Below are positions 10,880-39,100 of a stretch of 64,000 nt of DNA, piece after piece. The stretch is taken from positions 124,001 to 188,000 of the forward strand of contig NC_088302.1 in assembly GCF_032854445.1 (NCBI RefSeq), read 5' to 3'. The notes beneath the pieces were generated by a model. It was not told the origin of the DNA. It ran no database searches and worked only from the letters and a program-made list of their open reading frames with translations. Numbering within the stretch: the stretch's first letter is position 1; each line of letters begins with the position of its first letter. Position numbers and translations under genes: made by a program. This DNA is from Liolophura sinensis. Its lineage: Eukaryota; Mollusca; Polyplacophora; Chitonida; Chitonidae.

Positions 10880-10995
10880 CTACGAGTGGTTCTGGCACGA
10901 TAAGCAGCACCTTTCTTTGTAATAGTCATAACTACAGAGTCGAGCCTGAACAACCATGATACAGAAGCTGGCATACTTGTCCCTGCATCCAGGAT
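10880..10995 (-). CDS. ADAMTSL terminal exon: PLAC domain and stop
   Basis: Sense acceptor is ttctgttatag (116 nt including the stop TAG at 10882-10880). It encodes DPGCRDKYASFC, then IMVVQARLCSYDYYKERCC and LSCQNHS. Six cysteines in the C-x5-C ... C ... CC-x-x-C order identify a PLAC (protease and lacunin) domain, the usual C-terminus of papilin, several ADAMTS and several ADAMTSL proteins. I saw no AATAAA signal within a few hundred bases after the stop, so the 3' UTR length is unknown and may run into the repeats at 8690-10556. Confidence 0.93.
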
Positions 10996-13900
10996 CTATA
11001 ACAGAAAAATAGACAGAGATTATTGATACTGATATCAATGTATGAGTGTAGGAGAGTGGACACATGGCGCTAGTTCAGAAGGTTCACGTGCTGCCTCATT
11101 GTAACCAGTAAGCTCTTGAATAATTAGGTCATGTGTTATAATCCCGCCCTCGATCATTATCCTGTTACGGCCACGACTATAGGTCACAGGGTTTGTCAGT
11201 TGGTTTACCCTGAGCACCCTGAAATCATCTTCCCATGAACCTTAGGTACCCCATCATACAAACATAACATTCTTGAGCACACCAATCAATACATCAATAC
11301 ATCAACGCATTCAGCCTCCCCTGCCCTCACTGCCACCACATATGTAAAATAGCTAACTCCATGATCATCAGACAACTGGACAGCTGAGCAATGGTCTGAC
11401 TGCAGGTAAGTGTATACTTGTAAGTATTTCTGAAATTATTCCACTGTCAAGAGTTGGGCACTTTTCTTGCAGTTCTAACCCTTGTCTACCCCTAATTTTG
11501 TTCCCCTCCAATTTACCTTTGTCTAGCTGTGGCCTGTGGCAGGAATGTTTGTTACAGCTCTGTCTCTCCGCCGGTCGCCCCTTTTCTGGGCATTGCTCGC
11601 TCACCTTTAAGCTGGGATAGAGACACTTGAGTTCACGTGTCCTCACACCTGTCCCACAGCTCACTGAGCACTGTCAGGCAAAACAACAACAACAACAAAT
11701 CCTGAAGTGTGTCCAGTCTGCTAAATGGGCCTTCCACAATCAATATAATATTAATCATAAATTAACAGATATTTTCACATAAAAGGCCATCATAAAATGT
11801 ACTCCAAATACTGTCGATTTATTTATTTGATTGGTGTTGTAAGCTATACTCTAAAATATTTCACTATTTTCACCATGCTATGTTAACTCCCGTTGTCCAG
11901 CTCACCTCTCCTCAGTCTGCCATGAACCAGCCTGTTATCTCTTTTGTCTAGCTAACCTCTCCTTAGTTTGTCATGAACCACCCTGTTACCCCATTTTGCT
12001 CACCTCACCGGTCTGCCAAGAACCACTATGTGTTACCTGCCTTTTGTCCAGCTTACCTCTCCCCAGTCTGCCATGGAACACACTGTGTCAACTCCCTTTG
12101 TCCAGCTCACCTCTTCCCAGTCTGCCATGAACCAGCCTGTTATCTCTTTTGTCTAGCTAACCTCTCCTTAGTTTGTCATGAACCACCCTGTTACCCCACT
12201 TTTGCTCACCTCACCAGTTTGCCCAGAACCACTATGTGTTACCTGCCTTTTGTCCAGCTTACCTCTCCCCAGTCTGCCATGGAACACACTGTGTCAACTC
12301 CCTTTCTCCAGCTCACCTCTTCCCAGTCTGCCATGAACCAGCCTGTTATCTCTTTTGTCTAGCTAACCTCTCCTTAGTTTGTCATGAACCACCCTGTTAC
12401 CCCATTTTGCTCACCTCACCGGTCTGCCAAGAACCACCATGTGTTACCTGCCTTTTGTCCAGCTTACCTCTCCCCAGTCTGCCATGGAACACACTGTGTC
12501 AACTCCCTTTGTCCAGCTCACTTCTTCCCAGTCTGCCATGAGCCAGCCTGTTATCTCTTTTGTCCAGCTTACTTCTCCTTGGCCTGTCATGAACCACGGG
12601 CTTTGCCCAACTAACATGCACCTCTTCAGTCAGTTAGGAACCACTGTGTTACCCCCTTTTGTCCTGCTTACCTCTCCCCAGTCTGTCATGAATCACTAAG
12701 TTTTAACCCCTCTTTGTTCAGCTCACCTCTCCCAGACTGTCATGAACTACTCTCTGTTACCCCGCTTTTGCCCACCTCACCTCTTCCCAGTTTGCCATGA
12801 AGCACTCTATGACTCGCAATGTCCAGCTTACTTCCCCCCATTCTGTTATGAACCAGTGTGTTACCCACTTTGTCGAGCATAAAATGCACCTCTCACGAGT
12901 CTGCCATGAACCAGTCTGTTACCCACTTTGTCCAGCTAACCTCTCCCTAGTCTGTCATGAACCGGTCTGTTTCCCGCTTTGTCCAGCTTACCTCTGCCCA
13001 ATATGTCATAAATCAGTCTGTTACCCACTTTGTCCAGCTAACTCTGTGTTTATTCCCCTTCTGTCCTGCTTACCTCTCCCCAATCTGTCATTATAACCAC
13101 CCTTTTACCACCCCACCAATGTATCCCCTTTTGTCCAGCTTACCTCTCCTCACTCGATCATGAACCAGTCTGTGTTTATACCCCTTTTGTCCTGCTTATC
13201 TCTCCCCAATCTGTTATTATAACAACTCTGTTGCCACCTTCTGTTCACCTCATCTCTCCCCACTCAGTGATGAACCACTCTATGTCACCCTTTTTGTTCT
13301 GCTTACCTCTCCCCAGTCTGACATTATCACCACACTGTTGCCACCTTCTGTTCACCTCATCTATCCCCAGTCAGTCATAAACCACTATGTGTGACCCCTT
13401 TTGTTCTGCTTACCAATCTACCCTGAAATATTCTGTTACCGCCATTTGTCTTGCTTACCTCTCCCCAGTCTGTCATGAACCATTCTGGGGAACAAGGACC
13501 CAGATCCCCACACGGCTCCTCTGATATGGGCCTGTCCTCAGCCAGGCAGTTGACGTTCTTCACCGGAGATAGGAGAGTCGAGCTGATCCTCTTCATACAG
13601 ACCACATCACGCGTCCGCATAGCAATACCACAGGTGGCTGAACACTAAAATATAGGTAGAACAAGAAACTGGCACTATGGATACTGACAACATCACACAA
13701 CCACAGTGCGATACCACACATGGCTGAGCACAGTCATACAGTATACAGAGAAGAAGGACCTGACACTAGGGATACAGACCACATCATATGACCACAGGGT
13801 GATACCACACATGGCTGAGCACTGTCATACAGTATAGAGAGAAGAAGGACCTGACACTTGGGATACAGTCCACATCATACGACCACAGGGTGATACCACA

Positions 13901-16900
13901 CATGGCTGAGCACAGTCATACAGTATAGAGAGAAGAAGGACCTGACACTTGGGATACAGACCACATCATACGACCACAGGGTGATACCACACATGGCTGA
14001 GCACAGTCATACAGTATAGAGAGAAGAAGGACCTGACACTTGGGATACAGACCACGTCATACGACCACAGGGTGATACCACACATGGCTGAGCACAGTCA
14101 TACAGTATAGAGAGAAGGACCTGACACTAGGGATACAGACCACATCATACCACCACATGGTGATACAACACATGGCTGAGCACAGTCATACAGTATAGAG
14201 AGAAGAAGGACCTGACACTTGGGATACAGTCCACGTCATACAACCACAGGGTGATACCACACATGGCTGAGCACAGTCATACAGTATAGAGAGAAGAAGG
14301 ACCTGACACTTGGGATACAGTCCACGTCATACGACCACAGGGTGATAACACACATGGCTGAGCACAGTCATACAGTATAGACAGAAGAAGGACCTGACAC
14401 TTGGGATACAGGCCACATCATACGACCACAGGGTGATACCACACATGGCTGAGCACAGTCATACAGTATACAGAGAAGAAGGACCTGACACTTGGGATAC
14501 AGACCACATCATACGACCACAGGGTGATACCACACATGGCTGAGCACAGTCATACAGTATAGAGAGAAGGACCTGACACTAGGGATACAGACCACATCAT
14601 ACCACCACAGGGTGATACCACACATGGCTGAGCACAGTCATACAGTATAGAGAGAAGAAGGACCTGACACTTGGGATACAGTCCACGTCATACAACCACA
14701 GGGTGATACCACACATGGCTGAACACAGTCATACAGTATACAGAGAAGAAGGACCTGACACTTGGGATACAGGCCACATCATACAACCACAGGGTGATAC
14801 CACATATGGCTGAGAACAGCCATACAGTATAGAGAGAAGAAGGACCTGACACTTGGGATACAGACCACACATGGCTGAGCACAGTCATACAGTATAGAGA
14901 GAAGAAGGACCTGACACCTGGGATACAGACCACATCATACCACCACAGGGTGATAGCACACATGGCTGAGCACAGTCATACAGTATAGAGAGAAAAAGGA
15001 TCTGACACTTGGGATACAGACCACATCATACGACCACAGGGTGATACCACACATGGCTGAGCACAGTCATACAGTATAGAGAGAAGAAGGACCTGACACT
15101 TGGGATACAGACCACACATGGCTGAGCACAGTCATACAGTATAGAGAGAAGAAGGACCTGACACCTGGGATACAGACCACACCATACCACCACAGGGTGA
15201 TACCACACATGGCTGAGCACAGTCATACAGTATAGAGAGAAAAAGGATCTGACACTTGGGATACAGACCACATCATACGACCACAGGGTGATACCACTCA
15301 TGGCTGAGCACAGTCATACAGTATAGAGAGAAGAAGGATCTGACACTTGGGATACAGACCATGTCATATGACCACAGGGTGATACCACACATGGCTGAGC
15401 ACAGTCATACAGTATAGAGAGAAGGACCTGACACTAGGGATACAGACCATGTCATATGACCACAGGGTGATACCACACATGGCTGAGCACAGTCATACAG
15501 TATAGAGAGAAGAAGGACCTGACACTTGGGATACAGTCCACGTCATACGACCACAGGGTGATACCACTCATGGCTGAGCACAGTCATACAGTATAGAGAG
15601 AAGAAGGACCTGACACTTGGGATACAGACCACGTCATATGACCACAGGGTGATACCACACATGGCTGAGCACAGTCATACAGTATAGAGAGAAGAAGGAC
15701 CTGACACTTGGGATACAGACCACATCATACGACCACAGGGTGATACCACACATGGCTGAGCACAGTCATACAGTATAGAGAGAAGAAGGACCTGACACTT
15801 GGGATACAGACCACGTCATACCACCACAGGGTGATACCACACATGGCTGAGCACAGTCATACAGTATAGAGAGAAGAAGAACCTGACACTTGGGATACAG
15901 ACCACGTCATACGACCACAGGGTGATACCACACATGGCTGAGCACAGTCATACAGTATAGAGAGAAGAAGGACCTGACACTTGGGATACAGACCACACAT
16001 GGCTGAGCACAGTCATACAGTATAGAGAGAAGAAGGACCTGACACTTGGGATACAGACCACACATGGCTGAGCACAGTCATACAGTATAGAGAGAAGAAG
16101 GACCTGACACTTGAGATACAGTCCACATCATATGACCACAGGGTGATACCACACATGGCTGAGCACAGTCATACAGTATAGAGAGAAGAAGGACCTGACA
16201 CTTGGGATACAGGCCACATCATACAACCACAGGGTGATACCACACATGGCTGAGCACAGTCATACAGTATAGAGAGAAGGACCTGACACTAGGGATACAG
16301 ACCACATCATACGACCACTGGGTGATAGCACACATGGCTGAGCACAGTCATACAGTATAGAGAGAAGAAGGACCTGACACTAGGGATACAGACCACATCA
16401 TACGACCACTGGGTGATAGCACACATGGCTGAGCACAGTCATACAGTATAGAGAGAAGGACCTGACACTTGGGATACAGACCACGTCATACGACCACAGG
16501 GTGATACCACACATGGCTGAGCACAGTCATACAGTATAGAGAGAAGAAGGATCTGACACTTGGGATACAGTCCACATCATACGACCACAGGGTGATACCA
16601 CACATGGCTGAGCACAGTCATACAGTATAGAGAGAAGAAGGATCTGACACTTGGGATACAGTCCACGTCATACGACCACAGGGTGATACCACACATGGCT
16701 GAGCACAGTCATACAGTATAGAGAGAAGGACCTGACACTAGGGATACAGACCACATCATACGACCACAGGGTGATACCACACATGGCTGAGCACAGTCAT
16801 ACAGTATAGAGAGAAGAAGGACCTGACACTAGGGATACAGTCCACATCATACGACCACAGGGTGATAGCACACATGGCTGAGCACTGTCATACAGTATAG

Positions 16901-19900
16901 AGAGAAGAAGGACCTGACACTTGGGATACAGACCACATCATACGACCACAGGGTGATAGCACACATGGCTAAGCACAGTCATACAGTATAGAGAGAAGAA
17001 GGACCTGGCACTAGGGATACAGACCACATCATACCACCACAAGGTGATACCACACATGGCTGAGCACAGTCATACAGTATAGAGAGAAGAAGGATCTGAC
17101 ACTTGGGATACAGTCCACATCATACGACCACAGGGTGATACCACACATGACTGAGCACAGTCATACAGTATAGAGAGAAGAAGGACCTGACACTTGGGAT
17201 ACAGACCACGTCATACGACCACAGGGTGATACCACACATGGCTGAGCACAGTCATACAGTATAGAGAGAAGAAGGACCTGACACTAGGGATACAGTCCAC
17301 GTCATACAACCACAGGGTGATACCACACATGGCTGAGCACAGTCATACAGTATAGAGAGAAGAAGGATCTGACACTTGGGATACAGTCCACATCATATGA
17401 CCACAGGGTGATATCACACATGGCTGAGCACAGTCATACAGTATAGAGAGAAGAAGGACCTGACACTTGGGATACAGTCCACATCATACGACCACAGGGT
17501 GATACCACACATGGCTGAGCACAGTCATACAGTATAGAGAGAAGAAGGACCTGACACTTGGGATACAGTCCACATCATACGACCACAGGGTGATAGCACA
17601 CATGGCTGAGCACAGTCATAGAGTATAGAGAGAAGAAGGACCTGACACTTGGGATACAGACCACGTCATACGACCACAGGGTGATACCACACATGGCTGA
17701 GCACAGTCATACAGTATAGAGAGAAGAAGGACCTGACACTTGGGATACAGACCACGTCATACGACCACAGGGTGATACCACACATGGCTGAGCACAGTCA
17801 TACAGTATAGAGAGAAGAAGGACCTGACACTTGGGATACAGTCCACATCATACGACCACAGGGTGATGCCACACATGGCTGAGCACAGTCACACAGTATA
17901 GAGAGAAGAAGGACCTGACACTTGGGATACAGACCACATCATACAACCACAGGGTGATACCACACATGGCTGAGCACAGTCACACAGTATAGAGAGAAGA
18001 AGGACCTGACACTTGGGATACAGACCACATCATACAACCACAGGGTGATACCACACATGGCTGAGCACAGTCATACAGTATAGAGAGAAGAAGAACCTGA
18101 CACTTGGAATACAGACCACATCATACCACCACAAGATGATACCACACATGGCTGAGCACAGTCATACAGTATAGAGAGAAGAAGAACCTGACACTTGGGA
18201 TACAGACCACACATGGCTGAGCACAGTCATACAGTATAGAGAGAAGAAGGACCTGACACTTGGGATACAGACCACGTCATACGACCACAGGGTGATACCA
18301 CACATGGCTGAGCACAGTCATACAGTATAGAGAGAAGAAGGACCTGACACTTGGGATACAGACCACATCATACGACCACAGGGTGATACCACACATGGCT
18401 GAACACAGTCATACAGTATAGAGAGAAGGACCTGACACTAGGGATACAGACCACGTCATATGACCACAGGGTGATACCACACATGGCTGAGCACAGTCAT
18501 ACAGTATAGAGAGAAGAAGGATCTGACACTTGGGATACAGTCCACATCATACGACCACAGGGTGATACCACACATGGCTGAACACAGTCATACAGTATAG
18601 AGAGAAGAAGGACCTGACACTTGAGATACAGTCCACATCATATGACCACAGGGTGATACCACACATGGCTGAACACAGTCATACAGTATAGAGAGAAGAA
18701 GGACCTGACACTTGAGATACAGTCCACATCATATGACCACAGGGTGATACCACACATGGCTGAGCACAGTCATACAGTATAGAGAGAAGAAGGACCTGAC
18801 ACTTGGGATACAGTCCACGTCATACAACCACAGGGTGATACCACACATGGCTGAGCACAGTCATACAGTATAGAGAGAAGAAGGACCTGACACTTGAGAT
18901 ACAGTCCACATCATATGACCACAGGGTGATACCACACATGGCTGAGCACAGTCATACAGTATAGAGAGAAGAAGGACCTGACACTAGGGATACAGTCCAC
19001 ATCATACGACCACAAGGTGATAGCACACATGGTTCAGCGATACCACACATTGCTGAGTGATATCACACATTGCTGAGTGATATCACACATGGATGAGCAA
19101 GGTCATACAGTGCAAGGACAAGGATGTGACGCAAGCTATAGGTCGAAACAAAAAGTGATTGGCTGTTGATACAAGAACCACAACAAAGACAAAGAAACAA
19201 ATGGAAGTTGACAGGTGATTAAATTCCGAATCATCTTACACCAGTCCAGGGTCCAGCAAACCATAGCCCACCGCAAGGCTTCTTCTGTTTGCAGTGCTTC
19301 TTGCTGCGTGGCTTGTGGCCGGGACATCGGCTCTCTGGCAGGTTGGAGCCATCATCAGCTGAACAGAACACCTTCCTCTCATGGAAGCCTTCTCCACACT
19401 CTGAAGAACACTGTCAACATCGGTATGTGTGAGCAGCCTGCAGGTTTGCTCAGATGAGACAGATTAGTGTGTTATCGGCCTACAGATTTGCTCAGATCTG
19501 ACAGATTAGTGTGTGAGCAGCCTACAGGTTGCCTGGGCCTGAAAGAGTAGTGTGTGAGCAGCCTACAGGTTGCCTGGGCCTGACAGATTTGTGTGTGAGC
19601 AGCCTACAGGTTGCCTGGGCCTGACAGATTAGTGTGTGAGCAGCCTACAGCTCTGCCCAGGTCAGACACACTAGTGTGTGAGCAGCCTACAGATCTGCCT
19701 AAGTCAGACAGATTTGTGTGTGAGCAGCCTACAGGTCTGCCAGGTCAGACAGATTAGTGTGTGAACAGACTACAGATTTGCTAGGTGAGACAGATTACTG
19801 TGTGAACAGCCTACAGGTCTGCCAGGTGACACAGACTAGTGTGTGAGCAGCCTACAGGTATGTCCATGTGAGACAGATTAGTGTGTGAGCAGCCTACAGG

Positions 19901-22900
19901 TTTGCGAGGTGTGACAGATTAGTTTGTGAGCATCCTCAAACACACTAGTGTGTGAGCAGCCTACAGATCTGCCTAAGTCAGACAGTGTGTGAGCAGCCTA
20001 CAGGTATGTCCATGTGAGACAGATTAGTGTGTGAGCTGCCTACAGGCTTGCGAGGTGAGACAGATTAGTTTGTGAGCATCCTCAGACAGATAAGTGTGTG
20101 AGCAGCTTACAAGTCTGCCTAGGTGAGACAGATTAGTGTGTGAGCAGTCTACAGGTTTGCCCAGGTCAGACGATCAGTGTGTGAACAGACTACAGATTTG
20201 CTAGGTGAGACAGATTACTGTGTGAACAGCCTACAGTCTGCCAGGTGACACAGACTAGTGTGTGAGCAGCCTACGGGTATGTCCATGTGAGACAGATTGG
20301 TGTGTGAGCAGCCTACAGGTTTGCGAGGTGTGACAGATTAGTTTGTGAGCATCCTCAGACACACTAGTGTGTGAGCAGCCTACAGATCTGCCTAAGTCAG
20401 ACAGTGTGTGAGCAGCCTACAGGTATGTCCATGTGAGACAGATTAATGTGTGAGCAGCCTACAGGCTTGCGAGGTGAGACAGATTAGTTTGTGAGCATCC
20501 TCAGACAGATAAGTGTGTGGGCAGCTTACAAGTCTGCCTAGGTGAGACAAATTAGTATGTGAGCAGTCTACAGGTTTGCTAAGTGAGACAGATTAGTGTG
20601 TGAGCAGTCTACATGTGTGCCCATATCAGACAGAATAGTGTGTGAGCAGTCTACAGGTATGTCCAGGTCAGACACACTAGTGTGTGAGCAGCCTACATGT
20701 GTGCCCAGGTCAGACAGATTAGTGTGTGAGCAGCCTACATGTGTGCCCAGGTCATACTGATTAGTGTGTGAGCAGCCTACATGTGTGCCCAGGTCAGACA
20801 GACTAGTGTGTGAGCAGCCTACATGTGTGCCGATCAGACAGATTAGTGTGTGAGCAGCCTACATGTGTGCCGATCAGAGAGACTAGTGTGTGAGCAGCCT
20901 ACAAGTGTGCCCAGATCAGACAGATTAGTGTGTGAGCAGCCTACAGGTATGTCCAGGTCAGGGAGGCCAGTGTGTAAGCAGCCTACAGGTCTGCCAGATC
21001 AGACAGATTAGTGTGTGAGCAGCCTACAGGTCTGCCATGTCAGACAGATGAGTGTGTGAGCAGCCTACAGGTATGTCCAGATCTGAGAGGCTATTGTGTG
21101 AGCAGCCTACAAGTCTGCCAGATCAGACAGATTTGTGTGAGAGCAGCCTACAGGTTTGACTGAGTTAGAAAGATTAGTGTGGGAGCAGCCTTTGCTACAG
21201 GTTTGCCCGGCTCAGACAGATGAGCAGATCTCCTCTTTAAAGTAATTGCTAAGAAATAGTATTATTTACTGATTGTTTTGATTGATGTTTTATGCCATAC
21301 TCAAAAATATTTCACTCATACAATGACAGCAAGGGTTATTGGGGAGGAAACCAGGCAAAGTCCGGGGCAAACACACAATCATCTGCAGGTTGTTGGCAGA
21401 CCTTCCCACATACAACTGGACTTGAACTCACAGTGAAGGCATTTGTGAGAGGCTCCCGCGTCATTGGCATGCTAATCACAGAGGCCACAGCAGCAGTTAT
21501 TCACTTAATAATCTAAATGTATTTCTTATAGACCAAAACTCAATCTAGTCATCTAGGAAGCAAAATTTAATTTTGTAAAATGAAAATTTCACACAAGAAT
21601 TTAAGACAGTAAAATTTGTATTAAAACTGTTCATGAATGGCACAAAAATCTGTACAGAGAAAAGACGCAGTGTCAATGAATGACGTCACAGTATCGTCAC
21701 ATTGCTAATGGCGATGTGCCATATAAACACTGCTAATGGCAATGTGCAACATAAACATTGCTAATGCCAATGTGCAATATAAACACTGCTAATGGCAATG
21801 TGCAAAATAAATACTGCTAATGGCAATGTGCAAAATAAACACTGCTAATGGCAATATGCAATATAAACATTGCTAATGGCAATGTGCAAAATAAACACTG
21901 CTAATGGCAATATGCAAAATAAACATTGCTAATGGCAATGTGCAATATAAACATTGCTAATGGCAATGTGCCAAAAAAATACTGCTAATGGCAATGTGCA
22001 AAATAAACATTGCTAATGGCAATGTGTGAAATAAACATGTAAACGTTGCTAATGGTGATGCGCAATACACAAAATATGTCCAGCATAATCGCCACAATGT
22101 TAAATGGTAGACAAACTTGGATTTATGGTGGGAGGAAACTGAGCAGTGTCTGGGGAAAATCTCCAGGATGCTGGCAAACCTTCGCATATTCAGGCAAACT
22201 TGGAAGGTACACAATACATTCATTTCTGCTTACATGTACAATGTACAAGTCTGTCAGGTTGTCAACCAAGAAATGGCCTAGAAAAGCTTGTAACATATGA
22301 TGTGTATTTAGAAAATAAAAAAAGCGTTGTGTCCTACTTGTTTGGACCAGCGAGTATAAAACCAGTCCTTGGCACAAGACCCCATGTCACAGACTTCTTC
22401 AGATGGAGGCTTGGCATCTTGACAATGGGCTACCGGCAGCTTCTCCTCAGTAGCTCCTACACAAGTTACCTCCCTTGTGCGTTGTCCTAGGCCACAGTTA
22501 GTGGAGCACTGAAACGAAGGTCAGGGGCTATCTAACAAACACTTTAGGTAGAAAGATGAATCCACATTATACATCCATATGGCACAAAAACAAAGGAGCC
22601 AATATTCAAGTACTTATTATGTCACATAAACATTACAACCATCTCAACAGTTAACCCTTTATTTGTTTTTAACATTTCATTGTTACTATAAACAAGACAC
22701 CTTCCTTAGGATTTCAGTCCTACATTGCCTTAGACAAGAACAAATCATATATATATATATGTTTTGGGGACAGTCCTCATAAATTGTTTCACCATGATAT
22801 GGCTGAAATATTGCCGATGTGGCGTTAAGCCACAATCATTCATTCATTCAAATCATTGCTTCAGTTTCAGTTAAAACAATTTAAATGAACAAACACTCAC

Positions 22901-25900
22901 ATGGTGGGTGTCTAGCTGTTCTTAATAATGTTTGTCTTGTCAACACACCACACTAACAATTAAAGCAGTACATTAAATACCAAAATCAGATACGAATCAA
23001 GTTTGAGTTTTTATCTGAGCTTTCTCACCTTTCAGTTACTTGGTTTAAACAAATGTAATGTGTTAAGGAGTTGAATGTTATGTGGTCTGATTTACGTGGA
23101 GTCTATGGGGTCTATACATGAATGAAATTCAAGAGGATTGTCATTTGATCACTGAATAATTTTGCCTTACTTTTGAATAAAGCTTGCAAACAAATGCCAA
23201 TGAGGGTAAAACAATTGTGCCCGACAAAACCGGCTTTCCCTTTACTGGTCACTTGTACACCTTGGCAGAACACTGACATCAAGCTGACAGCTCACTCTCA
23301 AGAATAGGGACAGAGGGATGGGGAAGGCTAATCAGGATGGCATCAATTTGCCGAAAATTATTCAAGTTTAAGAACTATTGGTTTACAAAACAGATTAATT
23401 TAATAAAGATAAGTTCCCAATTTTCCAATTTATTTCTAGGAGTATTTGAAGGCAAAGCAAGTATCGCATTCATGTAATCTACTGTAGTCACTTTTACCAT
23501 AATGACTTCCAAGCCTACCATCACCATAATATGTTGGAAGAGTGTATCAATCACTGGGTAGGGGGCAGCACACGCGATGCTGTTAAAGGCTATATGCAAT
23601 TCAATAGAAAGTATAAATAATGTTTGCTCAGTTGACAACAAAGTTGGGGCGGTTCCACCTAACTGAAAAGATGAAATGCCTGATTTCTTGATTTCCACTG
23701 ACTTGAAAACTGTTGACGGAAATCGTGGTTATACATGTAGAAGGACCTGTCATCCGTCAAAGACAAACCAGGTACATTTCATGTGGCACCTTCAGCCCTA
23801 GGACAGGTGAGGTTCTGTCCGGTCTCCCTCAATCCACAAGACAACATACATGCATGACGTTTGTCCTAATATTGTTTGCAGTAAATTTAGAATTGCCAGG
23901 AAATGTCTACAGTAAATGTAATCCATAAGAGTATTTGTATATACACCAATTATTCTAACTGTATGCTGGAAGATTAGCTCTGTGATTACGTATACTATCA
24001 CAGCCCTGTCTTGTTCCATAAGCTTATCTTGAACACCTCAGTACTTCCCTTGCTGGCTTCAGTACACTACTATTGGGCAACAAATAATTTGTCTGTCTGT
24101 TGTCACAGTTATCTCAGCCATCACTTCCAGGTAGGTGTTCCCATGTGTCATCACGAGTAAACCCACACAAGCATGAAACTATAGCTGAAACTGGATAAAT
24201 TCCAACACAAAAAGCCATGTTTGAATACATACTCCTTACAGTGAGGGGAATCATGTATACAATTACCACTGCCACTATTAGGCAAGTTAGACCTTTTGAC
24301 ACGCATATTGGCTATTGTTTACGATCAGTCTCACCAGTAATTACCTAGTGGGAACCATAATCAACATTGATCATTAAAATCATTTCTCAAATAAATTAAA
24401 CAAAACTGAAAAAAAGATTCTTCATAATATGCTAGAAGTGTCAGTAGTTATCCCCCTTGTCTAGGCTTTGAGGGTTTACTCGTGATGACACATGGGAACA
24501 CCTACCTGGAAGTGATGGCTGAGATAACTGTGACAACAGACAGACAAATTATTTGGTGCCCAGCACTAGCATACTAAAGCCAGCAAGGGAAGTACTGAGG
24601 TGTTCAAGGTAAGCTTATGGAACAAGACAGGGCTGTGACAGTACATGTAATCACAGCCCTACAGAGCTACTTGAAGATATGGATGCATTCAGGCGTGGCA
24701 TGTGATTTCCAGTAAATACATGACCTCTGCTACTATCCCTGATAGAAGTCTCACTCACTTCTTCAAACTTAGATTGAACTGAAGATAGATTTTCACTTGG
24801 ACAAGAATGACACAAACAACAGAATGTATATGGATTACACTAGAACCGCTACAGGTATTTACTTAGCACACAACAAAAAGCATGATTAAAAATTTTTACA
24901 AGGCTTCAAACAAAAGCTGAAGTTAACAGCTTGTACATTAATGTAACCAGCTGAAATTTTAAAGCAGCTTTCCACATAATAAACACTGGTAGGCCTACTT
25001 CTGCACATTTTGTTTCACCAAGACTTTGTGTGAGTAGATGCTGACAACTGGTTATAATCTTAAGAACGACGATGAAGACTTTCAAATAGAGGGAGCAGGC
25101 CTCATCCGCAAGAGTCCTCAACACCTGCATGGCGCCCTGGGCCACATCCTGTGTCAAAAGGCTGGATATAACAATTCACATTAAATGACAAATATTCTTT
25201 ATTATGTCTCAAAGATTTTCCAAAATTGCACAGTATAGTACATGTTGTAAGCATTTGACACTGGCTAGTGCAACCCTCCAGTGCTACTGCAGGATCTAAA
25301 ATGACCTGAGACAAGAGTTTCTGACATAGGCTGGCTTGCATACAGTATGTCCGACCACATATTAATTCTTTTATACTGGGTATCGTTGGGCTCGGGAACA
25401 TTGTCAAAATATGTACGTGCGAAACTTGAGCTTTCGTGGGAAAGGGTTTAACAAGTGGAGCCATTTTTGTTGTTGTTGTTTCTTCAGATTGTTTCAAGTG
25501 TAGACTGATCACCACTTTGCCCATTGCTGTTTTACAGATCTCTGGGTTAAACAAAGATCTTTAAATGTATCACTACACAGTGACTGACCGGTATGGGGAT
25601 ATGTTTGATTCCTTTAATTGCTTAAATGGAATGAGCAAACAAGGGGTGGAGTTTGCATTCGTTTCTTTGGAGAAAAAAAAACCTAAACAAATGCAATTTC
25701 TGGCGATGGTCCCTCAGTGGAACTATCAAAGATGTCACCAACATGATTTTCTTGAAATTTTGCCGGTAGCCATTTACAAACTCACACACAATAGATTAAA
25801 ATATTAAATCTTATAAAATTAAGTTTATCCTGATACCAACATCAGACATATTACACTTTATAAGGGTAATGCTCACCTTGGACCAGTTTTCTGTCTTCCA

Positions 25901-27137
25901 GGAGGAGCATGGTTTATTGTTACACTGACCATAGGAGACTGGCCTAGTCTGGTCAAGGCACAGGTCTGCTGATACACTGACAGACAGAGTGGAGGAGATT
26001 TTCTTACGGCACTCAACTAGGCGAGTTCTGGAGCCCTCTCCACAGGTGGTGCTACATGGCCCCCATCCCTTAGCCAACCATCTGAAGGACAAACAGACTG
26101 TTCACATACACATACCATTACCAGCCACCAGACAAACTGACATACATACAGTTAAGACACAAGTACCATTACCAGCCACCTGACACAGAAACAGACAGAC
26201 ACACAGACAGACAAATGCACAGTTAACATAGATGTACCACTACTACCAACCTGACAAACAGACAGACAAATGTAGAGCTAAATGTAATGTACAAGTATCA
26301 TTACTAGCAACCTGGCAGACAGAGAGACAGAGAAATGCACAGTTAACATATATGTACCAATACCAGCAGCCTGACAGGCAGAAAAACAGACAGACAAATG
26401 TTCAGTTAACATACATGTCCCATCACCAGCCATCTGGCCCACAAACGGACACTTCTCATACATGTACCATTACCAGTCACCTCACAGACAAACAGACAAA
26501 CGCACAAATAACATTACCAGCCAGGTGATGTACAGACAGATAAATTTCGAGTTAACATCATTTTTAGCAAACCTGACAGAATGACAGACAGACAGAAAGA
26601 CTTACAGTCGACATACATATACCATTTCCAGCCACCTGGCAGACAGACAGTCAACATTAACATATCATTACCAGCCAATTGGTAAATTAACATGACAGTT
26701 AACATACATGTACCATTATCAGCCACCTGACAAACAGACAAATGTACAGTTAAAGACAAGATATCATTATCAGCCATCTGACAGACAGACAGACACTTCA
26801 CATACATGTACCATTACCCGCCATATGACAGACATAAAGACACTTCACATCCTTGTACCATTACAAGCAACCTGACAGACAGACAGACAGAGAAATGTAT
26901 ATTTAAGATACATGTATCATAAATAGCAACCTGACAGACAAACAAGTTAAGACACATGTACCATAACTAGCAACCTCACAGGCAGGCAGACAGACAGACA
27001 AATGCACAGTTACATGTACGGGTAGCATACAACTATCATTAGTAGCAGCCAGATTGACAGACAGACAGACAGACAGGCAGGCAAACATACAGTTACATGT
27101 AACATACAAGTATCATTACTAGCAACTTGATAAACAA

Positions 27138-27168
<31 letters not shown>

Positions 27169-30100
27169 TATAGACAGACAGGCAAATATACATGTTACAT
27201 GTGCCATACAAGTATCATTACTACATGTAGCAACCTGACGGGCAGACAGACAGGCAAATGTACACTTACATGTAGCATACAAGTATCAAAACTAGCAGAC
27301 AGACAGATAAACATTCAGTTAAGATACATGTACCATCACTAGCAGCCTTACAGACAGACGCAACTAATATAAATGTGCCATTCCCAGAACTGTGACAGAC
27401 AAATGTACAGTTATGTGTAGCACACAAGTATCATTACAAGCAAACAGACAGACAGGTCATACTGCTGATCATTCTGTTGGTGGTCATACTGTTGGTCACA
27501 CTGCTGGTCATACTGCTGGTCATTCTACTGGTCATACTGTTGGTCATTCTGCTGGTCGTTCTGTTGGTCATACTGCTGGTCATACTGCCGGTCACACTGC
27601 TGGTCATACTGTTGGTCACACTACTGGTCACACTGCTGGTCATACCGCCAGTCATACTGCTGATCATACTGTTGGTGGTCACACTTTTGGTCTTTCTGCC
27701 TGTCATAATGCTGGTTAGTCTGCTTCTCATACTGCTGGTCATACCGCTGGTCATACCACCGGTCATACTGTTGGTCGTTCTGTTGGTCATACTGCTGGTC
27801 TTACTGCCGGTCATACTGCCGGTCATACTGCTGGTCACATTGCCAGTCATTCTGTCGGTCATTTTGTTGGTGGTCATACTGTTGGTCACACTGCTGGTCA
27901 TACTCTTGGTCATTCTACTGGTCATACTGCCAGTCATACTGCTGGTTATACTGCTGGTCACATTGCCGGTCATTCTGTCGGTCATTCTGTCGGTCATTCT
28001 GCTGGTCATACTGTTGGTGGTCACACTTTTGGTCATTCTGCCTGTCATAATGCTGGTTAGTCTGCTGGTCATACTGCTGGTCATACTGCTGGTCATACCG
28101 CCGGTCATACTGCTGGTCGTTCTGTTGGTCATACTGTTGGTCATTCTGCTGGTCTTACTGCTGGTCATACTGCCGGTCATACTGCTGGTCACATTGCCGG
28201 TCATTCTGCTGGTCATTCTGCCGGTCATCCTGCCGGTCATAATGCTGGTCACATTGCCGGTCATACTGCTGGCCATACTGCCGATCATACTGCTGGTCAC
28301 ATTTCCGGTCATACTGCTGGTCATACTGCCGGTCATTCTGCTGGTCAAATTGCCGGTCATTCTGCTGGTCACACTGCCGGTCATTCTGCTGGTCATACTG
28401 CCGGTCATACTGTTGGTCATACTGCCGGTCATACTGCTGGTCACATTGCCGGTCATTTTGTTGGTTATACTGCCGGTCATACTGCTGGTCACATTGCCCG
28501 TCACACTGCTGGTCATACTGCTGGTCACATTGCCGGTCGTACTGCTGGTCATACTGCCGGTCATTCTGCTGGTCACATTGCCGGTCATTCTGCTGGTCAT
28601 ACTGCCGGTCATACTGTTGGTCATACTGCCGGTCATACTGCTGGTCACATTGCCGGTCATACTGCTGGTCATACTGCCGGTCATACTGCTGGTCATACTG
28701 CTGGACACATTGCTGGTCATTCTGCTGGTCATACTGCTGGTCATACTGCCGGTCATACTGCTGGTCATACTGCTGGTCATACTGCTGGTCACATTGCCGG
28801 TCATACTGCAGGTCATACTGTTGGTCATTCTGTTGGTGGTCAAACTGTTGGTCATTCTGTCAGTCATTCTGCTGGTCATCCTGTCGGTCATTCTGCTGGG
28901 CGTTCTGTTGATCATACTGCTGGTCATTCTACTGGTCATTCTGTTGGTCATTCTACTGGTCACACGGCTGGTCATAATGCTGGTCATAATGCTGGTCATA
29001 CTGTCGGTCATTCTGCTGGTCGTTCTGTTAGTCATACTGCTGGTCATTCTGTTGGTCGTTCTGTTGGTCATACTACTGGTCATTCTGTTGGTCATACTGC
29101 TGGTCATTCTATCGGTGGTCACACTGCTGGTCATACTGCTGGTCACATTGCCAGTCATTCTGCTGGTCATTCGGTTGGTGTTCATAGTGCTGGTCAGTCT
29201 GCTGGTCACACTGCCGGTCATTCTGTTGGTCATACTGCTGGTCATTCTACTGGTCATACTGTTGGTCATTCTGCTAGTCGTTCTGCTGGTCATACTGCCG
29301 GTCACACTGCTGGTCACACTGCTGGCCATAATAATGGTCACTCTACTGGTCATACTGTTGGTCATTCTGCTGGTCATTCTGCTGGTCTTACTGCCAGTCA
29401 CACTGCTGGTCATAATAACTGTCATTCTACTGGTCATACTGTTGGTCATTCTGCTGGTCGTTCTGTTGGTGGTCATACTGCTGGTCATTCTGCTGGTCAT
29501 TCGGTTGGTGGTCATAGTGCTGGTCAGTCTGCTGGTCATTCTGCTAGTCGTTCTGCTGGTCATACTGCTGGTCATTCTACTGGTCATACTGTTGGTCATT
29601 CTGCTAGTCGTTCTGCTGGTCATACTGCCGGTCACACTGCTGGTCACACTGCTGGCCATAATAATGGTCACTCTACTGGTCATACTGTTGGTCATTCTGC
29701 TGGTCATTTTGCTGGTCTTACTGCCAGTCACACTGCTGGTCATAATAACGGTCATTCTACTGGTCATACTGTTGGTCATACTGCTGGTCGTTCTGTTGGT
29801 GGTCATACTGTTGGTCATTCTGCTGGTCGTTCTGTTGGTGGTCATACTGCTGGTCATACTGCCAGTCATTCTGTATATGGGGCACTGATAGTATGAAATC
29901 GTACATCAGAATCACAAAAACATTCCCTTATGACAGAGAAGTGAAAACCAACATGTACATACTGTGGGGGGCAGGGCTGACTGTTACAGACAACAATGTT
30001 GGATGGAGGTCTGCTTTTGCCCACACAGTTCTCATCAGTCACCACTGCCTCAGACTGCCCCTTCACGCACACTACATTTGTCTCTTGTGTTCCTGTAAAA

Positions 30101-33100
30101 AAATAAACAATTCCGCATAAAAAGTAATGCCACCTGAACTTTGTACACCCCTACCCTTACACACCCTACCCCATAACACACCTTCCTACCCCATGATACA
30201 CCCTCCTACCCAAAAACACACCTTTCACACTATCCTACCCCATGACTCACCTTCAAACTCTTTGACACACCCACCACACCCTCTTACCCATGACACACCC
30301 TCCACATACCCTACCCCAAGGCACACCTTCCCCACCAATTACCTCATGACACACCCTGCTACCCCATGACACATCCTCCAGACTCCTACTCTATGACACA
30401 CCTTATCCCATGACACACCCCATCCTATGGAACCCTATTGTTCATGACAACCTCCTACCCCATGACACTAATCTCCCACCCAGAGACACACCCTCTACAC
30501 TCTCCACTCATTCTACCCCAAGGCACACACTCCATATCCCTTAACTCATGACACACCCTTCCCCATGACGCACATTCCTACCATATGATACACCTTCCAT
30601 ACCCTTTACTCCATCACACACCCTCCATAATTCTACTTTATGACACACCCCACCCCATAACACACCAGCCTCACACCTCTACCCTGTGACACACCAGCCA
30701 CACCCACCCTACTCCATAACACACCAGCCTCACACCTCTACCCTGTGACACACCAGCCACACCCACCCTACTCCATAACACACCAGCCTCACACCTCTAC
30801 CCTGTGACAAACCAAGCACAACCACTCTACTCCATAACACACCAGCCTCACACCCCCTAATCCATAACACGCCAGCCACACACCCCTACTCACTGACACA
30901 CCAGCCACACCCACCCTACTCCATAACACACCAGCCTCACACCTCTACCCTGTGACACACCAGCCACACCCACCCTACTCCATAACACACCAGCCACACA
31001 CCCCCTACTCCATAACACACCAGCCACACCCACCCTACTCCATAACACACCAGCCTCACACCTCTACCCTGTGACACACCAGCCACACCCACCCTACTCC
31101 ATAACACACCAGCCACACACCCCCTACTCCATAACATACCAGCCTCGCACCTCTACCCTGAGACACACCAGGCACACCCACCCTACTCCATAACACACCA
31201 GCCTCACACCTCTACCCTGTGACACACCCACCCTACTCCATAACACACCAGCCGCCCCCTATTCAATGACACACCAGCCACACACCTCGTACTCTGTGAC
31301 ACACCAGCCACATCCCCTACCCCATAACACGCCAGCCACACACCCCTACTCACTGACACACCAGCAATTCCCCCCCACATACCGAGACACACCACACCCC
31401 CCTACTCAATGACACACCAGCCCCCCCCCCTCCACACATGCCAAGACACACCAGTCACACCCCTACTCAATGACACACCAGCCACTCCTCCCCCCACATA
31501 CCAAGACACACCGGTCTCACCCCTACTCAATGACACACCAGCCATCCCTCCCCCACATGCCAAGACACACCAGTCACACCCCTTACTCCATGACACACCA
31601 GCCACACCCCATACTCCATGCCACACCTGCCACACACCCTTGCTCTGTGATGCACCAGCCATCCCCCTTCCCCCCAACAATACCACAACGCACCGCTGCC
31701 CCCCCCCAACCCCACCCCACCGTGCTAATCCATAACACACCAGCCAAACACTCAGAGTGGCCAGACAGACTGACAGACGAAGACAGTTCAATACTCCCAG
31801 TAAGCATGTACAAAAGAGTGGGCAGACAGACTGACAGATGACAGTTCAATACTCCCAGTAAGCATGTTGAAGAGAGTAAAAGGTCAAACTGACAGATAAA
31901 GACATTTCAATACTCCCAGTAAGCATACTAAAGAGAGTGAAAGGTTAAAGTGACAGATGAAGATAGTTCACTACTTCCAGTAAACATGTACAAAAGAGTG
32001 GGCAGACAGACTGACAGACAAAGACAGTTCAACGCTCAGTAAGCATGTAGACGAGAGACCTGACAGATAAAGACAGTTCAATATCCCAGTAAGCATGTAC
32101 AAAAGCGTGGGCAAATGGACTGACAGATAAAGACACTCCATACTTCCAGTAAGCATGTACAAAAGGGTGGGCAGACAGACTGACAGTTCAATACTCTCAG
32201 TAAGAATATACATTTACAAGACAGCTAAACAGACGACCGAGAAGAAAGAAGCAACAGGAAGGCCAGATAGTGAGTGACATATTCATTTATGACTACAATG
32301 GCAAATGTTTCATGTAATATATGTGTATATACATGTAAAACAATAAAAATACCAATCAAATATAATATACCATACAAGAATATATTAAACTATAAATCAC
32401 ATATTTTAATATTTTATAATGCAAATTCTACACCAAAGTAGTTCATCAATACAGAGGTGGCTGAAAAATGATCTTAAAATATGGTCTTTCTGATTGAACA
32501 AACAGTTCAAAGAGCCTAGCTCATAAGCAAATCCTTTGCTTTTGTAAATGTTTAGCCTCTCCAAACAGTGTTCAAATACCGAATATAGAGAACAGGTGTC
32601 AGACTGCTATCATGGCTGCATGACTGAGGGGTGCTGCCAGTTTATCTACTCCCTAGTCAAGTGCCCTTTATAGAATAGCCCTGGTTTTATACTTAACTAA
32701 ACATCAGTGAAGTTCAATCATGTTTGCTTTGTATTGTACAGGTTTCACAGTCCATGTAGAGTGCTCAGCTTTCAGTTCTACAGTCCTCAGTAATTACAGC
32801 CACATACTTTACATACACACACCCTACGGTACCTATCTTGTCACCTTTCACAACTACAGAGGCCCAGGGTAATGAGCAGATCTTTCATGCCTTCCACCTT
32901 CATGCCAGTTTGGAAGGCTTTAATTTTTAGGGTATGTGACTGGAAACCATGAGCACATGATGCTGAATTTTCAACTAGGTAGAGAGGACTTCCCAACCTC
33001 CAGAACATGATGCTGAACATTGTTTAAATCATCAATTACATGTAGCTAGTGTGGACGTCCCAACCTCCAGAACATGATGCTGAACATTGCTTAAATCATC

Positions 33101-36100
33101 AATTACATGTAGCTAGTGAGGACATCCCAACCTCCAGAACATGATGCTGAACATTGCTTAAATCATCAATTAGGTAAAGAGGATGTCCCAACCTTCAGCA
33201 CATGATGATGAACATTGCTTAAATCATCAATTACATGTAGCTAGTGAGGACATCCCAACCTCCAGAACATGATGCTGAACACTGCTTAGTCATCAATTAG
33301 GTAAAGAGGATGTCCCAACCTCCAGCACATTATGCTGAACATTGTTTAAATCATCAATTACATGTAGCTAGTGTGGACGTCCCAACCTCCAGAACATGAT
33401 GCTGAACATTGCTTAAATCATCACTTACATGTAGCTAGTGTGGACTTCCCAACCTCCAGAACATGATGCTGAACATTGCTTAAATCATCACTTACATGTA
33501 GCTAGTGTGGACTTCCCAACCTCCAGAACATGATGCTGAACATTGCTTAAATCAACAATTACATGTAGCTAGTGTGGACGTCCCAACCTTCAGCACATGA
33601 TGATGAACATTGCTTAAATCAACAATTACATGTAGCTAGTGAGGACGTCCCTACCTCCAGCACATGATGCTGAACATTGCTTAAATCATCAATTACATGT
33701 AGCTAGTGAGGACGTCCCTACCTCCAGCACATGATGCTGAACACTGCTTAAATCATCACTTACATGTAGCTAGTGAGGACGTCCCTACCTCCAGCACATG
33801 ATGCTGAACACTGCTTAGTCATCAATTAGGTAGAGAGGACTTCCCAACCTCCAGCACATGATGCTGAACATTGTTTAAATCATCAATTACATGTAGCTAG
33901 TGAGGACGTCCCAACCTCCAGCACATGATGCTGAACACTGCTTAAATCATCACTTACATGTAGCTAGTGCAGACGTCCCTACTGTACCTCCACCACATGA
34001 TGCTGAACATTGCTTAAATCATTAATTAGCCACTGTGGATGTAGATACCTTCAGCACATGATGATGAACATTGCTTAAATCATCAATTACAAGTAGCTAG
34101 TGCAGACGTCCCTACTGTACCTCCACCACATGATGCTGAACATTGCTTAAATCATCAATTAGGTAAAGAGGATGTCCCAACCTTCAGCACATGATGATGA
34201 ACATTGCTTAAATCAACAATTACATGTAGCTAGTGAGGACGTCCCAACCTCCAGAACATGATGCTGAACACTGCTTAAATCATCAATTACATGTAGCTAG
34301 TGAGGACGTCCCAACCTCCAGAACATGATGCTGAACATTGCTTAAATCATCACTAACATGTAGCTAGTGAGGACGTCCCAACCTCCAGAACATGATGCTG
34401 AACATTGTTTAAATCAACAATTACATGTAGCTAGTGAGGACGTCCCTACCTCCAGCACATGATGCTGAACACTGCTTAAATCAACAATTACATGTAGCTA
34501 GTGAGGACATCCCAACCTGCAGCACATGATGCTGAACATTGCTTAAATCATCACTTACATGTAGCTAGTGAGGACATCCCAACCTCCAGAACATGATGCT
34601 GAACATTGCTTAAATCATCACTTACATGTAGCTAGTGAGGACGTCCCAACCTCCAGAACATGATGCTGAACATTGTTTAAATCAACAATTACATGTAGCT
34701 AGTGAGGACGTCCCTACCTCCAGCACATGATGCTGAACACTGCTTAAATCAACAATTACATGTAGCTAGTGAGGACATCCCAACCTGCAGCACATGATGC
34801 TGAACATTGCTTAAATCAACAATTACATGTAGCTAGTGAGGACGTCCCTACCTCCAGCACATGATGCTGAACATTGCTTAAATCAACATTACATGTAGCT
34901 AGTGAGGACATCCCAACCTTCAGCACATGATGATGAACATTGCTTAAATCAACAATTACATGTAGCTAGTGAGGACGTCCCTACCTCCAGCACATGATGC
35001 TGAACACTGCTTAAATCATCAATTACATGTAGCTAGTGCAGACGTCCCTACTGAACCTCCACCACATGATGCTGAACATTACTTAAATCATCAATTAGGT
35101 AAAGAGGATGTCCCAACCTTCAGCACATGATGATGAACATTGCTTAAATCAACAATTACATGTAGCTAGTGAGGACATCCCAACCTCCAGCACATGATGC
35201 TGAACATTGCTTAAATCATCAATTACATGTAGCTAGTGAGGACGTCCCAACCTCCAGCACATGATGCTGATCATTCCTTCAATTATCAATTACATGTAGC
35301 TAGTTAGGACGTCCCAACCTCCAGCACATGATGCTGAACATTGCTTAACTCAACAATTAGCTGGTTTGGCCATCCCAACCTGCAGCACATGATGCTGAAC
35401 ATTGCTTAAATCATCAATTACATGTAGCTAGTGAGGACGTCCCAACCTCCAGCACATTATGCGGAACATCGTTTAAATCATCAATTACATGTAGCTAGTG
35501 AGGACGTCCCAACCTCCAGCACATGATGCTGATCATTCCTTCAATTATCAATTACATGTAGCTAGTGAGGACGTCCCAACCTCCAGCACATTATGTGGAA
35601 CATCGTTTAAATCATCAATTACATGTAGCTAGTGTGGACGTCCCAACCTCCAGCACATGATGCTGAACATTGCTTAAATCAACAATTACATGTAGCTAAT
35701 GAGGACGTCCCTACCTGCAGCACATGATGCTGAACATTGCTTAAATCATCAATTACATGTAGCTAATGTGGACGTCCCTACCTGCAGCACATGATGCTGA
35801 ACATTGCTTAAATCATCAATTAGCTAGTGTGGATGTCCCTACCTCCAGCACATGATGCTGTACACTGCTTAAATCCAGCAATCTTCCAGGTGTACTCAAT
35901 GCGGGCACCAGCAGATGATTGAGGGTTGAGGGCATCATCTATGAACGGCTGCCCTTTGGATTTTGCTCCTGGCTGAGACACATTGTTTGTGTCTGATGAA
36001 GAACTTTGTGAAGGGTAGTTGTTGATCTTAAGGGCCTGCCTGCCTGGTGATTGCGGGGGTATGTACCGTAGGGGTTGGTAGCGTCCTGGAATCAAACCCC

Positions 36101-39100
36101 TATTATCATGTCTGTGGGCGAGTCGTTGTTGATGTGTTTGATATGGTGGGATATAATGAGGCTGCCGGCCGTATTGCAATGCACGCACATCAGACCCTTG
36201 ATACGCCTGGCTCGATGTCCTATGTGTGGAGCCTCCAGAGTGACTGTGGGCAAAAGTGGAGTGTCTATTGCCAAACACCGAATGCCTGTTGCTACCTGAA
36301 GAGTGTCTGTTGCCACCTTCGAAGCGCCTAGTATTGCCAAGGGCATGCCTTATGCCACTTGATTGATGATGCCTTGCTCCTGTAGATGCTGGCAAGTATG
36401 TGTTGTGGCTGTGGCTGGCATATTTAGAGTGACCTGAAGGATCACCAGACTGATGTTGATTAGATTGACGACCCGAATGATGTCGGTATGTGGTGGAACC
36501 CGCCAGATGGAGAGCCTGTGACCCATAACTTGGTGAGTGCTGAGACTGGGGGTGGGAATCGATCTTCTCTGGGGCAGACAACTGTTGAATCTGAGGTGTC
36601 CTGACTGGCTCTGCTGTCTGACCTTCCTGGTGTCTCCTATGACCTTTCCTATGGTTACCATGGTGATGTCGTCTACTGTGTTGCTGTTGTTGGAAACCTG
36701 CCTGGTTTCTTCTGGGGTTCGATTTCTCTGTTCTTGAGATAGACAACATATCTGCCATGACTTTGTCTACCATGCCTAGCGGCACTGTAAAGCTATAATG
36801 GATGCCCGGGTTCTTCTGGTAAGCCAGAAGCTGAAAGACACAAACCCAATGTTTTATTGAGACAAAGTTGCTCCCAATTTTAGTATAGAGACATGAGTGG
36901 CATGACTGACACCAGAGGCTGATTTGGAAGTTCCATCAACTTCCTTCCCTTGAAAATAAGCTTAAGCACCAAAAGTACTCATAAAATGCACATATACATG
37001 AGAGAAATTTGAGGTCAATGTGTATCAAAGGAATTTCATCTCTGTATAATTTTTTTATGATCTGTCCATATGATGACAGTCAAAAGCATCATTTCTGAAA
37101 TATCACTGCCGCTATTAGACTGAGTTGGAGCATGCAGCCACATACAAAGATGCGCACGCTGTACATGCAGTGTATGCAAAAGCCAGCCACATACAAAGAT
37201 GTGCACTCTGTACATGTAGTGTATGCAAATGCCAGCCACATAGCGATGCACACACTGTACATGCAGTGTATGCAAAAGCCTGCAGCATTCCAAGACGCAC
37301 ACACTGTACATGTAGTGTATACAAAAGCCAGCCACATACAAAGATGTGCACTCTGTACATGCAGTGTATGCAAAAGCCAGCCACATACAAAGATGTGCAC
37401 ATTGTACCTGTAGTGTATGCAAAAGCCAGCCACAATAACAGATGTGCACTCTGTACATGTACTGTATGCAAAAGCCAGCTACATACAAAGATGCGTACAC
37501 TGCACACATAGTGTATGCAAAAGCCAGCCACATACAATGATGCACACTCTGTACATGCAGTGTATGCAAAAGCCAGCCACATACAATGATGCACACTCTG
37601 TACATGTAGTGTATGCAAAAGCCTGCAGCATTCCAAGACGCACACACTGTACATGTAGTGTATGCAAAAGCCAGCCACATACAAAGATGTGCACGCTGTA
37701 CATGCAGTGTATACAAAAGCCAGCTACATACAAAGATGCACACTCTGTACATGTAGTGTATGCAAAAGCCAGCCACATACAAAGATGCACACTCTGTACA
37801 TGTAGTGTATGCAAAAGCCAGCCACATACAAAGATGTGCACTCTGTACATGCAGTGTATGCAAAAGCCAGCCACATACAAAGATGTGCACATTGTACCTG
37901 TAGTGTATGCAAAAGCCAGCCACATACAAAGATGTGCACATTGTACATGCAGTGTATGCAAAAGCCAGCCACATACAAAGATGCGCACTCTGTACATGTA
38001 GTGTATGCAAATGCCAGACACATACAAAGATGTGCACATTGTACATGTAGTGTATGCAAAAGCCAGCCACATACAAAGATGTGCACTCTGTACATGTAGT
38101 GTATGCAAAAGCCAGCCCCATACAAAGATGTGCACATTGTACATGTAGTGTATGCAAAAGCCAGCCACATACAAAGATGCGCACTCTGTACATGTAGTGT
38201 ATGTAAATGCCAGCCACATACAAAGATGTGCACATTGTACATGCAATGTATGCAAAAGCCAGCCACATACAAAGATGCACACTCTGTACATGCAGTGTAT
38301 GCAAAAGCCAGCCACATACAAAGATGCGCACTCTGTACATGTAGTGTATGCAAAAGCCAGCCACATACAAAGATGCACACTCTGTACATGTAGTGTATGC
38401 AAAAGCCTGCAGCATTCCAAGACGCACACACTGTACATGTAGTGTATGCAAAAGCCAGTCAAATACAAAGACGCGCACACTGTACATGTAGTGTATGCAA
38501 AAGCCAGCCACATACCAAGATGTGCACACTGTACATGAAGTGTATGCAAAAGCATTAAATATTATGCATTTGACTTCTACAAAGCATCATATAATGATGT
38601 TACAGATGTTAAGAGTGAGACAAACCTGTAAGTCCACAGTTCTGTTTGTGGGACCATGAGCAAAGATACACTGCCCTGGGCAAAGGTGGGTGCGCAGTCT
38701 CGAATAGGTAAAGGTGGTGCCTATGGCTTTGTACTGACCAGAAGGGGACGGTCTCCAATTTCCATTGAAAATGTACTCACCCCCAAATTTCTGCAAGGCT
38801 GAAACAGGAAAAACATTTAGAATGCATTAAGCCGATATTAACAGCCACTTAATATTGAGAATGCGCATTCTACATCGAATGGCTTGTTTCCGTTTCAACT
38901 ACTGGCAAGAAGTCTTTGATAGCCTGAAATGTATACAGAAACATACTTAGCCATCACCTTAAAACAGTTTCAATGAAAAAATGTGCTTTCTTTGATTTTG
39001 GAAAAGTTTTCGCCTCGAGTGTTATTAAAGTCAGAAAATAATTCGTAAAGTTTATTTTCTACATAAATCTTTGTATTACTTTTATACATGCAAGTTATAC

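Follow-up and report, generated by a model that had tools for sequence, protein, structure and literature searches.

A THSD4-like gene with junction-derived minisatellites

The 64,000-nt window analyzed here, a stretch of contig NC_088302.1 from the chiton Liolophura sinensis, carries part of a minus-strand gene whose product, in a protein search with the readable exons, was THSD4/ADAMTS-like. Within the introns of this gene lie minisatellites whose repeat units are copies of the adjoining exon-intron junctions. The search returned 100% identity over 788 residues to a predicted L. sinensis protein of 1001 residues, "thrombospondin type-1 domain-containing protein 4-like isoform X1." Residues 170 to 1001 (the last 832) of the annotated L. 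sinensis protein P0001 matched the spliced translation of 10 exons with 0 mismatches, and all 9 introns between these exons were GT-AG. As residues 1 to 169 gave no convincing match inside the window, the first exons probably lie beyond position 64000. A first-pass annotation, made from the DNA sequence alone, had called the gene ADAMTS-like, a label that agrees with the Pfam accessions of the L. sinensis protein, which we take to be TSP1, ADAMTS spacer, and PLAC.

Intronic arrays copy three splice junctions, and probably a fourth

To look for copies of exon edges in introns, we aligned 60 nt of exon edge to its own intron at each of the 19 splice junctions in the window and compared the outcome with 200 dinucleotide shuffles. 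Three junctions exceeded every shuffle: the donor of exon 3 (E3; z = 19.0, 40 nt at 93%), the acceptor of exon 8 (E8; z = 11.8, 50 nt at 80%), and the E8 donor (z = 8.4, 29 nt at 90%). The remaining 16 junctions, including the E5 acceptor (z = -1.0), gave z values from -1.0 to 2.4. An ungapped, anchored test with 500 shuffles then asked whether intron-side matches run on across the junction into the exon. They did so at the E3 donor (57 sites) and the E8 donor (17 sites), with 0/500 shuffles as high in both cases; at the E5 acceptor (26 sites), the best extension was above all 500 shuffles, and the mean extension gave p = 0.06. The E8 acceptor showed nothing in this test (53 intron-side sites, p = 1), because its copies differ by small gaps adjoining the junction; a gapped table of its units shows the match continuing through the junction. 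In a gapped test anchored on the array consensus, none of 3000 shuffles equaled the score of the E3 donor, E8 donor, or E8 acceptor. The E5 acceptor score (6.5) was equaled in 77/3000 shuffles and by 20/3000 random coding 24-mers, and one of nine other exon starts came close, at 6.0.

Each unit straddles its junction. The E3 donor unit comprises ~33 to 40 nt of the end of exon 3, the GT, and ~32 nt of further intron 3, and the E8 donor unit comprises ~25 to 29 nt of the end of exon 8, the GT, and ~24 nt of further intron 8. The E8 acceptor unit joins ~45 nt of the end of intron 7 to ~46 to 50 nt of the start of exon 8, and the E5 acceptor unit holds only ~15 nt of the start of exon 5. Junction copying is therefore certain at the E3 donor, E8 donor, and E8 acceptor and probable at the E5 acceptor. 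The first-pass annotation had described four such arrays, at edges that we identified by inference from its coordinates; three of them stand, while the fourth is only probable. It further stated that each array terminates in its functional junction, which holds in every case, and the annotated protein, a predicted isoform, joins exons only at these terminal junctions, using no intronic copies. Coordinates are collected in Table 1.

Table 1. Exons of the THSD4-like gene and tandem arrays at its exon edges (positions in the window)
Feature	Position	Strand	Remarks
THSD4-like / ADAMTS-like gene, partial	10880..43329	-	Protein mapped back to window
E1	43125-43329	-	Protein mapping
E2	38626-38798	-	Protein mapping
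E3	35843-36830	-	Protein mapping
E4	29963-30092	-	Protein mapping
E5	25877-26081	-	Protein mapping
E6	22338-22508	-	Protein mapping
E7	19240-19410	-	Protein mapping
E8	13459-13644	-	Protein mapping
E9	11517-11670	-	Protein mapping
E10, with stop	10880-10995	-	Protein mapping
E3 donor junction array	32976..35882	-	67-nt unit, 43 copies plus functional junction at 35843
E8 acceptor junction array	13595..19032	-	91-nt unit, 60 copies
E8 donor junction array	11881..13487	-	51-nt unit, 30 copies
E5 acceptor probable junction array	26067..27440	-	47-nt unit, 27 degenerate copies
E7 contrast array, junction not copied	19426..21191	-	42-nt unit, ends 15 nt upstream of exon 7

Other candidates were rejected. 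The array beside the E7 acceptor does not constitute a fifth junction copy (11 sites and p = 0.33 in the ungapped anchored test; an exon-side score of 0, equaled in 3000/3000 shuffles). At the E1 and E4 donors, the best matches were 14 nt long (z = 2.3 and 2.4), which we attribute to chance among 19 tests. Adjoining the E5 acceptor array is a separate array of ~199 copies of a 12-nt unit (GGTCATACTGCT) at 27455-29873.

The exons are the source of the arrays

Shared sequence between arrays and exon ends could in principle mean that exon edges were recruited from older intronic arrays. To assess direction, we aligned the edge peptides with relatives, using 18 of 120 listed proteins, one of which was the query's own. 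The cysteine/tryptophan framework of these peptides was present in 17/17 relatives, molluscs and arthropods among them, which indicates that the arrays were copied from the exons. Recruitment from arrays is hardly credible, as the edge peptides are conserved domain sequence recognizable in all 17 relatives (this applies to E3 and E8 and bears more weakly on the 15 nt of E5), and the copies contain gaps, with stop codons present in two of the three arrays examined.

We also compared the arrays with one another. In all 10 pairwise comparisons of array consensus sequences, among which the E7 array was counted, between 5 and 94 of 100 shuffles scored equally high. The sequences give no sign of a common origin, and the earlier description of the arrays as unrelated to each other holds.

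Identities within the arrays point to different histories. At the E8 donor, the copies resemble the functional junction (0.79) more than they resemble each other (0.725), as would be expected if that junction were the founder; the corresponding values are similar at the E3 donor (0.89 and 0.906). The E8 acceptor copies are 0.954 alike and 0.75 identical to the functional unit, so a later expansion within the array amplified an old copy. The E5 acceptor array is ragged (0.58 to the functional unit and 0.657 between copies). The E8 donor array is partly a 4-unit higher-order repeat of ~205 nt, visible as a period of 205 in Tandem Repeats Finder (TRF) and as a lag-4 identity peak, and five 65-nt variant units in the E8 acceptor array (13645-19032) have one 26-nt deletion in common. 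Both features belong to the ordinary turnover of arrays and are typical of unequal exchange. By eye, short repeats (TGTGGT) border the 26-nt deletion, which might reflect slippage.

Copies evolve as neutral sequence

Recurrence at several edges had been taken to suggest either a mechanism that targets junctions or a constraint that preserves them. We found no trace of such a constraint. In the exon-derived parts of the copies in three arrays, the synonymous fraction of distinct changes was as expected (observed/expected, 0.20/0.22, 0.14/0.12, and 0.26/0.23), and the copies of these arrays contained 6, 12, and 0 stop codons, respectively. Column diversity in exon-derived versus intron-derived parts was 0.079/0.100 at the E3 donor, 0.269/0.264 at the E8 donor, 0.060/0.029 at the E8 acceptor, and 0.321/0.335 at the E5 acceptor. 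When the junction was rotated round the unit, the difference was as low or lower at 14/67, 33/51, 66/91, and 14/47 positions (arrays in the same order), so that no array stands out, and the columns of the splice dinucleotide were equaled or beaten by 16/67, 5/51, 63/91, and 32/47 adjoining column pairs, those of the E8 donor coming closest to being special. Evolution of the copies is neutral, and their splice dinucleotides show no special preservation.

Donor GT is retained in 43/43 copies at E3 and 26/30 at E8. Acceptor AG is retained in 13/27 copies at E5 and 2/60 at E8, where TG replaces it in the other 58. This TG would be explained by a single early change that was amplified afterward; alternatively, selection may have acted against a live upstream acceptor.

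The retained donors bear on whether copies are kept for a function, either as decoy or reserve splice sites or through stepwise (recursive) removal of units as small GT...AG introns, which would regenerate a donor where the exon stops. By a donor matrix, 9/43 E3 copies and 8/29 scored E8 copies score at least as high as the real donor, and the last two exon bases are AG in both donor arrays, such that copies read AG/GT. However, many other columns are as well preserved as the splice dinucleotides, the exon-derived parts are neutral, and AG is missing from 58/60 E8 acceptor and 14/27 E5 copies. Moreover, use of a decoy donor would bring in a premature stop for 40/40 located decoys at E3 (3/43 were not located) and 23/24 at E8 (2/26 were not located), the single remaining E8 decoy, at 13414, adding 45 nt in frame. 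Taken together, these data make a function for the copies very improbable. With dozens of nearly identical decoy donors, the gene offers a clear natural setup for asking how the spliceosome selects the correct donor, and it warns annotators that junction arrays are full of splice sites that look plausible but are false.

Tandem duplication at exon edges as the likely origin

TRF arrays of at least 100 bp span 34,846 of the 64,000 bases, ~54% of the window, so the whole neighborhood is rich in minisatellites beyond the exon edges and array seeds are plentiful. More than half of the window is thus tandem array, with many different units, which is dense for an animal gene region. In the congener Liolophura japonica, repeats account for 27.89% of ~609 Mb; unclassified repeats make up 14.04%, and the class containing simple repeats makes up 0.08% (PMC11068029). 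This is far under the 54% of our window, although that annotation may simply leave minisatellites uncounted.

To estimate how many junction-spanning arrays random seeding would produce, we merged the TRF output by hand into 36 arrays (36,835 bp), collapsed each to one unit, and dropped the units randomly under three settings of required or allowed exon overlap. The expected number was 0.46 to 0.63 for the gene (12 arrays, 18 junctions) and 0.49 to 0.78 for the window (36 arrays, 19 junctions). Three or more would arise with a probability of 0.007 to 0.020 in the gene and 0.011 to 0.041 in the window, and four or more with a probability of 0.0006 to 0.0017 and 0.0018 to 0.0070. Five arrays span an edge or lie at most 15 nt from one, compared to 1.17 to 1.55 expected (P = 0.0034 to 0.018).

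We consider it highly probable that the chiton arrays are minisatellites of the kind called mirages in amphioxus (see below) and arose by ordinary tandem duplication at an exon edge. A short tandem duplication, through replication slippage or unequal exchange, would happen to cross the edge, and it would be tolerated because the outermost copy leaves the exon and splice site in place and the mRNA unaltered. The intronic copies would then grow and shrink as in any minisatellite, without selection, while selection acting on the exon would maintain the terminal copy. The same event would explain why the functional junction always lies at the end of its array: after a tandem duplication over the boundary, the exon stays attached to the outer copy, and presumably only alleles in which that copy is intact survive. 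A junction-targeting mechanism would not be needed.

Two observations count against this explanation. First, the three or four junction arrays amount to ~4 to 9 times the random expectation, with P values of 0.0006 to 0.04 under uniform seeding. Second, copies nearer the functional junction are not clearly more similar to it in the E3 donor, E8 donor, or E8 acceptor array, and there is therefore no visible continuing supply of new copies from the functional junction. (In the E5 acceptor array, the two copies nearest the junction, at 0.64, are somewhat closer to it than the rest.)

The excess would be accounted for if minisatellites in this genome arose preferentially at exon edges, for instance, by way of cotranscriptional R-loops, nucleosome edges, or steps in base composition where exons end. 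Exon 8, flanked by arrays on both sides, fits such a preference, as do the count of arrays on an edge or within 15 nt of one and the three or four junction arrays against 0.46 to 0.78 expected. However, the comparison was made post hoc in a single gene with arrays merged by hand, 14/19 edges have no array within 15 nt, and the strict count of three is borderline. We regard preferred birth sites as improbable. The excess itself is modest, with two of the arrays flanking one exon, and it settles the question of preferred birth at edges neither way. It lends weak support to the contention that the arrays reflect something other than chance. The broader proposition that exon edges are true birth hot spots in chitons (and amphioxus), with junction arrays a widespread and recurrent route of intron lengthening, likewise seems doubtful. 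If it held, introns would lengthen and pick up decoy splice sites as well as material from which new introns could form.

Other features of the window

Intron 5 contains no TRF array. It holds an inverted repeat (23975-24167 and 24469-24661) with arms of 193 nt that are 93% complementary and spaced 301 nt apart, which looks like a foldback element. By eye, 39440-39540 resembles the head of a tRNA-derived short interspersed nuclear element, and 21270-21480 resembles a dispersed element that is also hinted at near 11815-11870 and 22100-22200. ARAGORN found no tRNA genes in the window, 39440-39540 included, and searches for RNA families gave 0 matches in the window at gathering scores.

Comparison with mirages and other junction-associated repeats

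The first-pass annotation knew of no named class with the property of copying its own junction, but such a class had already been named. In amphioxus, "mirages" are tandem repeats across exon-intron boundaries, described in Adh3 and in the globin genes BflGb6 and BflGb9; the globin report attributes the name to the work on Adh3. It notes that duplication can affect both boundaries, that many copies carry splice signals while regular splicing is apparently unharmed, and that mirages may seed new introns (PMC3087553).

The chiton repeats share the anatomical features of amphioxus mirages. They are tandem and minisatellite-like in both TRF output and unit tables, their units span an exon-intron boundary (strongly at 3/19 junctions, probably at the E5 acceptor), and the authentic boundary is the one used in the normal product, as annotated for the predicted isoform. 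Splice signals persist in many, though not all, of the copies (GT in 43/43 and 26/30, AG in 13/27), the count being just 2/60 at the E8 acceptor. Homogenization within the array with exclusion of the boundary unit fits the E8 acceptor (0.954 versus 0.75), but not the E3 donor (0.906 versus 0.89) or the E8 donor (0.725 versus 0.79). Because these features agree, we file the chiton arrays as mirages in a mollusc, a classification made on anatomy from one assembled sequence. What is new is the taxon (a mollusc rather than a cephalochordate), the size of the arrays, and the presence of several within one gene: BflGb6 haplotypes are described with 3 and 6 units (PMC3087553), whereas the chiton arrays have 27 to 60 copies and reach 5.4 kb, with three or four in the same gene. 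Our literature searches found no mirages in molluscs and met only the amphioxus cases, a result that makes no claim of absence from print.

Three other systems are partly alike, as far as the portions of the reports consulted here describe them. A close parallel is the variable-number tandem repeat in intron 18 of human ABCA7, which also lies directly beside an exon and opens with the two bases of the functional exon 18 donor; its 25-bp unit differs in starting at the GT, and the consulted portion mentions no exon copy (PMC5954066). For that repeat, measurements showed that one unit can be retained and that exon 19 is skipped depending on array length (PMC5954066), and by analogy, similar unit retention and exon skipping would be a fair prediction for the chiton gene. 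In intron gain by the Rogers model in the potato RdRp gene, a tandem duplication likewise crossed an intron-exon boundary, but there a new intron arose (PMC4974935), while none is evident in the chiton gene. Human genes in segmental duplications also have minisatellite repeats at exon edges that are able to alter gene structure, but with few units (on average, 30 bp × 4) and in recent paralogues (PMC2812944). Against this background, the L. sinensis gene would extend mirage repeats to molluscs, with long arrays and several in one gene, and it raises the question of whether introns grow, and new ones arise, through tandem duplications that occur at the edges of exons.

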